The position numbers were made by a program, and so were the translations under genes. This document shows, piece by piece, positions 17,090 through 23,211 of a DNA stretch of 23,211 nucleotides. How positions within the stretch are numbered: the stretch's first letter is position 1; each line of letters starts with the position of its first letter. A model generated the notes under the pieces. The model searched no databases, had not been told where the DNA came from, and was given only the letters and a program-made list of their open reading frames with translations. This DNA is from a virus, in IMG/VR virus record IMGVR_UViG_3300009515_000028, positions 1-23,211 of that record; one strand, 5' to 3'.

Positions 17090-17491
17090 TTGTCTAGTTT
17101 CACCCGTGACATTCAATATTTGCCGAAAGGCGACTTGCACGCGAATGTCGAAGACTTTCTTTTTTATTTAGACGGTCCGAACAAAGGACCGTTCGCACGG
17201 GTGCCGGCGAATTCGTTGACGAACTTCGGTTCAATCCCAAAGATAAAAATAATTCGCAAACTAATCAAACCCGAAAAATACAAAAATTCTTATGCGTTAC
17301 ACGACGCACTTGTGGGCGAATTTTGGCCGGCAATAAAAGTCACTGATAGGTTTGGCAACGCAAAGCTTTTGACATGGAAAGAAAGCGCCGCTTGGCTTCG
17401 TGAAGCCCTTCGCGTTGAAGGTTGCCCACTTTGGGAACGTCAAGCCGTCTATTTGTCAGTGAAAGCCTACGGGCTATTTGTGAAACGTTGA
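17090..17491 (+). CDS. DUF1353 family protein
   Basis: Member of the DUF1353 family, common in phages near tail or lysis genes; its biochemical function is not known. The 133 residues follow the family pattern: a beta N-terminus (FLFYLDGPNKGPFARVPANS), a turn with FGSIPKI (46-52) in place of the usual F-T-D-x-A-S-x-P, SYALHDALVGEF (67-78) with the conserved His-Asp, a charged helix KESAAWLREALRVEG (97-111) and a C-terminal YLSVKAYGLFV (121-131). The start is TTG at 17090, two bases after the previous gene, with no strong ribosome site, so translation is probably coupled. It is the last rightward gene, and its 3' end overlaps the converging leftward gene by 18 bases. Confidence 0.75.
   Translation: MSSFTRDIQYLPKGDLHANVEDFLFYLDGPNKGPFARVPANSLTNFGSIPKIKIIRKLIKPEKYKNSYALHDALVGEFWPAIKVTDRFGNAKLLTWKESAAWLREALRVEGCPLWERQAVYLSVKAYGLFVKR
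17171..17191. repeat. 7-bp perfect inverted repeat inside the DUF1353 gene
   Basis: ACGGTCC (17171-17177) and GGACCGT (17185-17191) with a seven-base spacer. It lies within coding sequence and may be chance. Confidence 0.3.
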
Positions 17492-17671
17492 AACACCTGA
17501 AAAATTTTTTGAAAAATATTCGGCGACTCTTTTTTGCTTTCTTCTTTTGGCTTGTTGTTTTGGTTTTTCTATTTCTTCGGCAACGTCGGCGGGGGGTGTT
17601 GAAGGCCCGAACATTTCTTCAGCTTCTTCGCGCGAAATCCACTTGACCGGCATGACAAAAACTTCTTTCAT
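17474..17671 (-). CDS. Small protein of unknown function with a basic C-terminus (65 aa)
   Basis: Not recognised. Last gene of the leftward block. The first half is acidic (ISREEAEEMFGPSTPPADVAEE) and the second half is strongly basic (KPKQQAKRRKQKRVAEYFSK), which would suit nucleic acid or partner binding. A GGTGA site lies just before the ATG, overlapping the TGA of the kinase-like gene upstream, from which it is one base away. Its 3' end overlaps the DUF1353 gene on the other strand by 18 bases. It is short, so some doubt remains, but spacing, ribosome site and strand all fit a real gene. Confidence 0.6.
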   Translation of the reverse strand: MKEVFVMPVKWISREEAEEMFGPSTPPADVAEEIEKPKQQAKRRKQKRVAEYFSKNFSGVSTFHK

Positions 17672-17672
17672 T

Positions 17673-18098
17673 TCACCAACCCGCCTTCACAAGTTTCGTT
17701 GATATGGTTGAAAAATAAATGCCGTAGTCAACGCACACTAGCTTCTTTCCTAACACCCCGAAATTTTCCCTTTTCAAATCCCCCAAAAATTCAGGCACCT
17801 TGTCAGGCAACTTAAAACTTGAAGGCACCGGGTCGCATTTTCTTTGAAGTAGTATTCGACCGTCGGGGCTTAAAAACTCACACGGCGCAAGCCACTTCGA
17901 AATTGCTTGAATGTCTTTTGTGTCGTCGAAAAGTTTTTGTTCGATAACATTCGCAAAAATTCTGAAGTCAGCTTCTTCAACCTTCACCACTAAATCGGGC
18001 CGTATTTTACACTCAAACACGCGCCGGCTTTCACCTTCGCCGATTAAATCCCCACAAAGCAAATTGAATGCTTCTTCGTGTATAGTTTCAACGCTCAT
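17673..18098 (-). CDS. Minimal protein-kinase-like protein (141 aa)
   Basis: The sequence carries the kinase landmarks in order: a Gly loop GEGESRRVF (20-28), VVKVE with the candidate ATP-binding Lys39, Glu53 in a following helix, a hinge-like strand ILLQRKCDPVP (82-92), a catalytic-loop-like GDLKRENFG (Asp107, Lys109, Asn112) and VDYG (Asp124) in place of DFG. The chain ends 15 residues after DYG, so the activation segment and the rest of the C-lobe are absent; ordinary kinases need about 250 residues. It may be a small phosphotransferase of the kinase fold or a pseudokinase. No substrate can be named. AGGGG precedes the ATG. The SEC-C gene lies nine bases upstream and the 65-residue gene one base downstream, suggesting a three-gene unit. 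The assignment is my own motif reading. Confidence 0.65.
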   Translation of the reverse strand: MSVETIHEEAFNLLCGDLIGEGESRRVFECKIRPDLVVKVEEADFRIFANVIEQKLFDDTKDIQAISKWLAPCEFLSPDGRILLQRKCDPVPSSFKLPDKVPEFLGDLKRENFGVLGKKLVCVDYGIYFSTISTKLVKAGW

Positions 18099-18107
18099 TT
18101 CAAACCC

Positions 18108-18299
18108 CTATTCACAAAGATCATAACAGCAATTTTTGAATTTCTTTTCACTTCCACAAATACATTTTGCGTTTCGCATTTTTGACTTTTTGCAGTCTTT
18201 CGGCAATTTGAATTTTCGCGGTTCGGCTAGGCCCCGCTTTATTTTTTCGGCTTGTATTTTATTAACGACCGCAATTTTCAGTTGTTCCGCAATGCTCAT
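18108..18299 (-). CDS. Small SEC-C motif zinc-binding protein (63 aa)
   Basis: Short basic protein ending in a SEC-C zinc motif: KCICGSEKKFKNCC (45-58), with Cys46, Cys48, Cys57 and Cys58 in the C-x-C-x8-CC spacing of the family. In SecA this motif binds zinc and SecB or ribosomes; stand-alone phage versions have no assigned job. The rest is a Lys-rich helix (EQLKIAVVNKIQAEKIKRGL). The ATG overlaps the TGA of the upstream helicase gene (ATGA at 18296-18299) and has AGGGTG before it, so it is co-translated with the helicase. A role as adaptor to host SecB, ribosome or nucleic acid is inference. Confidence 0.75.
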   Translation of the reverse strand: MSIAEQLKIAVVNKIQAEKIKRGLAEPRKFKLPKDCKKSKMRNAKCICGSEKKFKNCCYDLCE

Positions 18300-20236: not shown

Positions 20237-20258
20237 GGTTTCACCTTTTAAAAATGAA

Positions 20259-20276
20259 CCCCCGCCGAAACGGGGG
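20259..20276 (-). terminator. GC-rich hairpin, probable weak terminator or RNA-processing element
   Basis: CCCCCG and CGGGGG (20259-20264 and 20271-20276) flank a six-base loop. In the leftward transcript the stem is followed by TTCATTTTT. It sits between the gp49-like gene and the zinc-ribbon gene and ends ten bases before the latter's ribosome site, so it may reduce rather than stop downstream expression. Confidence 0.55.
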
Positions 20277-20284
20277 TGGTGTTT

Positions 20285-21897: not shown

Positions 21898-23211
21898 TTA
21901 TTTTCTATACCTTTTAGCTTCGTACCCGTCGCCGTCAAGGGGCAAACCTTCGGCCCATGTTGGCAACTCGCACATAAGTTTTTTGAATTCTTCTAAGGTG
22001 CCGACGCCTTCGTCAACTTCGGCAATGATTTCATCGTGAACGGTCAAAACTATTTCATAGCCCAACGGGTCAACTTTCAACATACTTGCGGCCATAAGGT
22101 CACGCGCAACCGCTTGCGTGATGTTTTCGACAAGTTTGCCGCCGTAAGTGTTCATTAGACCGAAATGCTTGGTTGTTGAATTGGTGCCTAAAAAATGAAT
22201 TTGATCTTTGCCGAATTTTCCTTCGCGCATTGTTGGCTTATAGTAAGAAATTAAACGGCCCGAAGGGAGTCGACAAAACAAGAAACCGTTTGCAACTCTA
22301 AATTTTATCATTCGGCACTTGTAAGTCGTGCCGGGGTTTAAAACGGCGTTTTGTGCGGCGCGGTCGATGTCATACCAAAACTTCACAATTTTCGAATTTG
22401 CTTTGCGCCATGACTGAACAACTTTCAACGCAAAATCGTCGGAAACTTTCACGCCGTAGTTTTTCGCCATTTGTTGAAACGCACCGACGGCGCCTTGATA
22501 GCCAAGTGCTAAAATTGCAACCTTTCCGACCATGCGTTCGTCACCGCGAATTTTTTCACTTGGCTTGCCGTAAATTTTGCCGGCTTGGTTTTCATACACC
22601 AAACCACCTTCGGCGAAAAGTTGAACAAGGTCTTGTTGGCCGGAAAGCCACGCCAAAACGCGCGCTTCAATTGCTGCAAAGTCACAAACCAAAAACCGCT
22701 TGCCTTTTTCGGCTTGTATCATGCTTCGAACGCAAGAAGAAAGAACTTCCATTGGTGCCCCGTAGGTCATGTCAAGCAATTCAGGGTCTTCATACTTGAA
22801 CAACTCGACCGCGCCTTCGGGGTCTTTTAACGTCGGCCGGGTGAGGTTTTGCGGCTGAAATAGATTGCCGCTCCACCTACCCGTTGACGCGCCATGAAAA
22901 CGAAGCAACCCACGCGCGCGACTGTCTTCTTTGTCGACGATGCCGACTAGCGAATCATATTTCGCAATGGAAGTCTTGCTTGTTTGTGTTCGTATCTCGA
23001 CGATCTGCTTTACCTTTTCGGGCAAAGTTTTGTCTTCTAGTACTTCGGCTAAATATTCTTTTTGTGTGTTCTTTAAAATATACCCGTATTTTTTGGCGTA
23101 GGCTATCAATTGAGGCCGACTATTTACGTTCGCAAGTTCGCCGCCGGTTATTTCGTCAACTGAAGCCAACAATTTTTCTTTTTCAATGTCACGGATGACG
23201 CGGGCGTGTTC
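21898..23211 (-). CDS. Family A DNA polymerase, C-terminal part (5' end beyond window)
   Basis: Replicative DNA polymerase of the PolA family. The frame is open to the right edge, where it reads EHARVIRDIEKEK, so the N-terminal portion, including any 3'-5' exonuclease domain, lies outside; 437 codons are visible. Counting from the TTG at 23172: GASTGRWSG (94-102) of the template-binding region, motif A LVCDFAAIEARVLAWLSG (161-178; metal-binding Asp164), motif B ERMVGKVAILALGYQG (212-227; Arg213, Lys217, Tyr225) and motif C LTVHDEIIAE (376-385; His379-Asp380-Glu381). The YQG in place of YG in motif B is usual for a phage subgroup (recalled). All catalytic residues are intact. The gene heads the leftward cassette within this window. 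Confidence 0.95.
   Translation of the reverse strand, partial: EHARVIRDIEKEKLLASVDEITGGELANVNSRPQLIAYAKKYGYILKNTQKEYLAEVLEDKTLPEKVKQIVEIRTQTSKTSIAKYDSLVGIVDKEDSRARGLLRFHGASTGRWSGNLFQPQNLTRPTLKDPEGAVELFKYEDPELLDMTYGAPMEVLSSCVRSMIQAEKGKRFLVCDFAAIEARVLAWLSGQQDLVQLFAEGGLVYENQAGKIYGKPSEKIRGDERMVGKVAILALGYQGAVGAFQQMAKNYGVKVSDDFALKVVQSWRKANSKIVKFWYDIDRAAQNAVLNPGTTYKCRMIKFRVANGFLFCRLPSGRLISYYKPTMREGKFGKDQIHFLGTNSTTKHFGLMNTYGGKLVENITQAVARDLMAASMLKVDPLGYEIVLTVHDEIIAEVDEGVGTLEEFKKLMCELPTWAEGLPLDGDGYEAKRYRK

Follow-up and report, generated by a model that had tools for sequence, protein, structure and literature searches.

Phage-encoded kinase-like proteins of the PHROG 4301 family: probable minimal phosphotransferases without a C-terminal lobe

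Phage polyvalent proteins have been described that carry kinase domains without the whole C-terminal subdomain; such domains also exist as stand-alone proteins in Bacteroidetes (Iyer et al. 2017, PMC5512222). HopBF1 has a minimal, atypical kinase fold and phosphorylates HSP90 (PMC9950578), and many host and defence proteins are substrates of the T7-type phage kinase JSS1_004 (PMC12345140). Here we analysed a 141-residue kinase-like protein encoded in a 23,211-nt stretch of viral DNA (IMG/VR record IMGVR_UViG_3300009515_000028; the whole stretch is referred to as the window). The protein matches PHROG 4301 (PHROGs profile search, E = 4.6e-32, residues 4–133), a family without a function label in PHROGs, and our literature search found no paper characterising it. 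The PHROG number, scattered kinase labels and, as a precedent, the architecture without a C-terminal lobe (C-lobe) are already known. The initial annotation of the window regarded an activation segment and several more helices as necessary for known kinases, a premise that is too strong in the light of HopBF1 (PMC9950578) and the C-lobe-less domains (PMC5512222). We consider the protein to be, on balance, a stand-alone minimal active phosphotransferase, probably a protein kinase that serves in phage–host conflict.

Active-site motifs and predicted fold

Translation of positions 17673–18098 on the minus strand gives exactly the 141 residues and the kinase motifs reported in the initial annotation, numbered as there (Table 1). 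D107 and N112 are 5 residues apart, N112 and D124 12, and D107 and D124 17; the chain ends 17 residues past D124. Shuffling the protein 200,000 times never produced the ordered motif set. Among 73 aligned members (about 32–57% identity to the window protein), ten positions do not vary (R25, K39, N50, E53, A71, S77, P102, D107, G114 and D124); N112 is conserved in 71 members and K109 in 70. Free variation was thus not seen at Lys39, Asp107, Asn112 and Asp124, which had been singled out as the key positions. The patterns used for retrieval included the DLK loop, a possible bias for D107, K109 and N112; neither pattern covers K39, E53 or D124. Sixty-two members lack a match to the DLK retrieval pattern, and among these K39, E53, D107 and D124 are all present in 62/62, K109 in 59/62 and N112 in 60/62. 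Median member length is 146, and every member ends 16–35 residues past the Asp of DYG. Hence, the missing C-lobe is a family trait and not a truncation, and its near-absence, first noted for the window protein, holds across the whole family.

An AlphaFold2 model built with a 69-sequence alignment has a mean predicted local distance difference test (pLDDT) score of 95.9 and a predicted template modelling (pTM) score of 0.88. The predicted N-terminal part consists of a helix (3–14), three strands (15–21, 25–30 and 36–41), a helix that carries Glu53 (49–60) and two further strands (73–76 and 82–86). The C-terminal part has short strands alone (100–102, 113–116, 119–122 and 136–138); beyond residue 67 there is no helix of at least 4 residues and no C-lobe helix. 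The model thus corresponds to a kinase N-terminal lobe (N-lobe) with strand and helix order kept, the catalytic loop and the DYG strand. A distant member (L092) is predicted to have the same core (pLDDT 91.5). In Foldseek searches against PDB, the top 50 matches of the window model were all kinases (best E 5.3e-5, probability 1.00; PRPK TMq 0.63), with NleH1/NleH2, OspG, Rio2, MEK1, HopBF1 and PRPK among the best. The L092 model was best matched by JAK2, Rio2, NleH1, OspG, LIMK1 and HopBF1, and its top 50 were kinases including one fold-related aminoglycoside phosphotransferase, APH(2''). Among viral models the closest were PaMx11 (TM-score 0.94) and Lacusarx, followed by viral protein kinases. 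A two-lobed fold had been proposed as the structural check: a confident kinase-like model was obtained, but strictly it is one lobe plus catalytic loop. Together with the invariant key residues it supports the kinase assignment. The protein-kinase-like fold is recognised here by the Gly-rich loop, the beta3 Lys and alphaC Glu, the order of Asp, Asn and DFG-type Asp, and the structural match.

Pfam gave no match for the window protein, including YrbL-PhoP_reg at E ≤ 10. In searches with Pfam hidden Markov models (HMMs), YrbL-PhoP_reg (PF10707), a family placed in the PKinase clan (PMC9758233), was matched weakly by 16 of 69 members (best E = 3.2e-4). Profile–profile comparison with 26 YrbL-type sequences gave 86% probability over the N-lobe (E = 5e-6, one comparison). 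Sequence searches of PDB returned chance matches only. The catalytic loop (DLKxEN/DLKxxN) is of protein-kinase type; the activation segment, the APE motif and helices alphaE–alphaI of classical eukaryotic-type kinases are absent, both from the model and from all members.

Phosphotransfer, target and alternative explanations

Beyond its protein-kinase-like N-lobe, the protein would retain just three elements: the catalytic loop, a single beta-hairpin and the metal-binding segment with DYG. Going by the established functions of the equivalent kinase positions, Lys39 and Glu53 would position ATP, Asn112 and Asp124 would bind Mg ions, and Asp107 would orient the acceptor hydroxyl. Because the substrate-binding activation segment and helices alphaF–alphaI are missing, the target would have to be recognised as a docked partner protein; HopBF1 shows that docking can suffice. 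The most likely target would be a protein of the host (or of the phage) that is phosphorylated in the course of infection, as by T7 gp0.7-type kinases, and JSS1_004 is a precedent for kinase use against host defence. Both the protein target and the purpose in conflict are what we infer. The broader proposal, that a widespread phage family of active single-lobe protein kinases without activation segment or alphaE/alphaF anchor phosphorylates a specific host defence or takeover target, is tentative and somewhat less probable than not. Identifying the target could bring to light a phage control point, or a step in counter-defence, that is new.

Several observations weigh against an active protein kinase. 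None of 69 members matches Pfam Pkinase (PF00069), and hhalign comparison with a profile of 19 bacterial Ser/Thr kinases was not significant (0.6%); the same alignment pairs D-K-N and DFG with D107, K109, N112 and D124. The HRD histidine and arginine are absent (the window loop reads P-x-F-x-x-D-x-K), and without alphaE/alphaF the catalytic spine lacks its usual anchor; conceivably, the N-terminal helix (residues 3–14) anchors the catalytic loop in their place. Compared globally with PDB kinases, the models reach moderate TM-scores (about 0.45–0.63), as expected for an alignment of one lobe alone. The neighbour survey of relative loci found neither a substrate nor a fixed genomic partner.

The initial annotation offered a minimal phosphotransferase, a pseudokinase or a decoy. 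Invariance of the catalytic residues best supports the first, whereas the other two predict drift of at least D107 or N112. A pseudokinase, acting as a nucleotide-binding allosteric partner or scaffold without phosphotransfer, would fit the loss of C-lobe and activation segment, the change of N112 to His in 2/73 members and the His or Thr found at K109 in 3/73. However, a pseudokinase family will usually have lost one or more of these catalytic residues, and here D107, which has no nucleotide-binding role, is present in 73/73, along with K39, E53 and D124. It is mainly because D107, unneeded for nucleotide binding alone, does not vary that we prefer an active enzyme and regard the pseudokinase as unlikely. 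That the protein serves as a decoy or inhibitor by mimicking a host kinase or HipA-like toxin is highly improbable: phage origin and small size are what speaks for it, but a decoy needs neither the invariant catalytic base nor the metal ligands, and HipA is not among the best 50 PDB matches of either model. In two members (L029:1691-2119 and L047:2914-3405), the catalytic-loop Asn is replaced by His (DLKxSHFG) with one extra residue before the loop; judged by sequence, these two are possibly pseudokinases or have an altered metal site.

If the family is active, its acceptor might instead be a small molecule, a nucleotide or a nucleic acid, as for aminoglycoside phosphotransferases of the same fold. 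We hold this to be improbable, if the least so of the alternatives. There is no substrate-binding C-lobe and specificity for proteins is not evident, APH(2'')-IIa is among the fold matches of the L092 model, the window gene is part of a DNA-replication block, and genes for thymidine hypermodification are found in Yuavirus relatives (PMC11946847). On the other hand, Yuavirus phages are described with their own 5-hydroxymethyldeoxyuridine (5hmdU) kinase (PMC11946847), and relative loci reveal no constant association with nucleotide-metabolism genes. Moreover, the catalytic loop is the protein-kinase-like DLKxxN (Lys in 96%). APH-type enzymes have the catalytic motif HGDxxxxN instead. A split kinase, with the C-lobe supplied in trans by a neighbouring gene, a host protein or homodimerisation, recalls the composite two-gene HipA kinase proposed in Legionella (PMC9758233). 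Across about 95 loci, no gene family recurs beside the gene more than 7 times and no conserved C-lobe-bearing neighbour was found, which argues against an obligate partner gene; the 65-amino-acid (aa) open reading frame (ORF) downstream of the window gene has no kinase match and no kinase C-lobe in a profile search. We consider a split kinase quite improbable, with a small probability left for a host-supplied lobe or a dimer.

Distribution and genomic setting

Searching IMG/VR with the single protein and exact patterns gave 0 relatives, the patterns being too specific, and a 7-sequence alignment used instead retrieved 108. With an E cut-off of 1, tblastn matched 96 phage records; identity is under 60% throughout, and the weakest tail is attributable to chance. 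In 83 of these records the match spans 80% or more of the protein. Mesyanzhinovviridae (Abidjanvirus, Yuavirus) are represented, as are related Pseudomonas phages such as PaMx25, two Nanhaivirus phages, Sphingobium phage Lacusarx and Erythrobacter phage L02; Vibrio jumbo phages are more distant relatives. Asteriusvirus 121Q is marginal in tblastn (E = 0.5), yet it aligns across the motifs and matches phrog_4301, as do all 16 members of alignment A1. Bacterial genomes yielded one relative (Pseudohongiella, beside portal, terminase and head-morphogenesis genes) and plasmids one; with phage and IMG/VR matches abounding, this is a phage family. A few relatives carry kinase labels in GenBank: 'serine-threonine kinase' (PAKlein3), 'cyclin-dependent kinase-like 5' (Pan1) and, for Lydia, 'protein kinase, gp0.7; T7-like', the last a label that the present analysis did not confirm. 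Members occur in the cultured Pseudomonas aeruginosa phages YuA, M6, PaMx11 and PaMx25, where activity and deletion phenotype are directly testable.

Table 1. Positions of the mini-kinase gene, its motifs and adjacent features in the window
Feature	Position	Strand	Basis
Coding sequence, 141-aa C-lobe-less kinase-like protein (PHROG 4301)	17673..18098	-	Translation, phrog_4301 match, homologues
Glycine-rich loop GEGESRRVF, residues 20–28 (G20-x-G22; G22 95%, R25 100%)	18015..18041	-	Alignment of 73
Lys39 in VVKVE, equivalent of the beta3 ATP-binding lysine, 73/73	17982..17984	-	Alignment of 73
Glu53, equivalent of the alphaC glutamate, 73/73, inside predicted helix 49–60	17940..17942	-	Alignment and model
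Catalytic loop GDLKRENFG, residues 106–114 (D107 100%, K109 96%, N112 97%, G114 100%)	17757..17783	-	Alignment of 73
DYG in VDYG, residues 124–126, DFG equivalent (D124 100%; 15 residues left after DYG)	17721..17729	-	Translation and alignment
Shine-Dalgarno-like AGGGG just 5' of the ATG, overlapping the SEC-C gene stop codon	18105..18109	-	Sequence
SEC-C zinc-motif mini-protein, 63 aa, directly upstream of the mini-kinase	18108..18299	-	SEC-C E = 1.9e-7
65-aa ORF, last gene of the leftward block, begins one base downstream of the mini-kinase	17474..17671	-	ORF list, profile search

Portal and coat protein matches (P22_portal 1.2e-118; P22_CoatProtein 8.3e-71) mark the window as part of a P22-like podovirus genome. 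The mini-kinase gene takes the penultimate place in a leftward replication block that consists of PolA, DHH/DHHA1, VRR-NUC (weak match), SNF2 helicase, SEC-C, mini-kinase and the 65-aa ORF. The 141-aa ORF is real. A frameshift or truncation artefact was ruled out, as the 73 members share the same end point and the next base but one past the mini-kinase already belongs to another ORF. The SEC-C protein is little beyond its C-terminal zinc motif; its gene overlaps the helicase gene by 4 bases and has its stop codon at 18108–18110, upstream of the mini-kinase ORF. A strong terminator-like hairpin (ACCCCCGTTTCGGCGGGGGT followed by a T-rich tail) lies at 20258–20277 (minus strand) in the middle of the block and suggests that the block is not one single transcription unit. 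The PolA-type polymerase ORF (424 aa, 21898–23172, minus strand) is best matched by Streptococcus phages P9 and BV-0002 (~42%), despite the P22-like virion genes. The rightward virion block ends on its right side with a DUF1353 protein (17090–17491, plus strand), which faces the mini-kinase gene.

The suggested placement among early host-takeover genes is weak, given that the gene follows a replication block with a mid-block terminator-like hairpin, and it is not general, since the gene adjoins terminase, portal or head genes in many relatives. Head, packaging or connector genes lie within six ORFs in at least 24 of 85 relative loci, and a helicase, primase or polymerase gene in at least 8; these counts are lower bounds, with most neighbours unlabelled. 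The mini-kinase gene is beside or near a terminase, portal or MuF-type head morphogenesis gene in L054, L060, L069, L002, L008, L078, L087, L027, L093 and L097.

Comparison with described kinases

The window protein is a direct member of PHROG 4301, without any difference from it. With YrbL (PF10707) it shares the G-x-G-x-x-R-x-V-[FY] loop and the following Val/Lys strand. However, YrbL is bacterial and longer (~190–230 aa), its HMM does not match the window protein, and the alignment is limited to the N-lobe. T7 gp0.7 and JSS1_004 combine an N-terminal kinase domain with a C-terminal shutoff domain and are nearly confined to Autographiviridae.

The family also resembles Kinase-PolyVal (PF18762), in which the C-terminal subdomain is fully lost with the active site intact, and which is phage-borne and has stand-alone versions. 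The Kinase-PolyVal Gln in the last N-lobe strand corresponds to Q85 in the window protein, with Q in 56/73 and M in 17/73 family members. Nevertheless, the PF18762 HMM matched none of 69 members (Pfam, E ≤ 1). Kinase-PolyVal has an insert between catalytic His and Asp, whereas the PHROG 4301 family has neither the catalytic-loop His nor the insert. Host range differs as well: mainly phages of Proteobacteria for PHROG 4301 versus Verrucomicrobia and Bacteroidetes for Kinase-PolyVal. From these sequence comparisons, the family would work like Kinase-PolyVal but, by HMM match and insert, is not a member of it.

Among solved structures, the best matches are NleH, OspG and HopBF1, pared-down kinase folds with 159–176 residues in PDB (NleH and OspG 159–169 aa); all three are minimal effector kinases, and OspG and HopBF1 are active. 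These effectors are secreted into eukaryotes, are longer and keep C-lobe helices; a sequence relation to them was detected for a single member alone (E = 0.05). The PHROG 4301 proteins are smaller than the solved minimal kinases they resemble, and with ~146 residues, a conserved active site and no C-lobe the family is a natural test of the minimum kinase fold for phosphotransfer.
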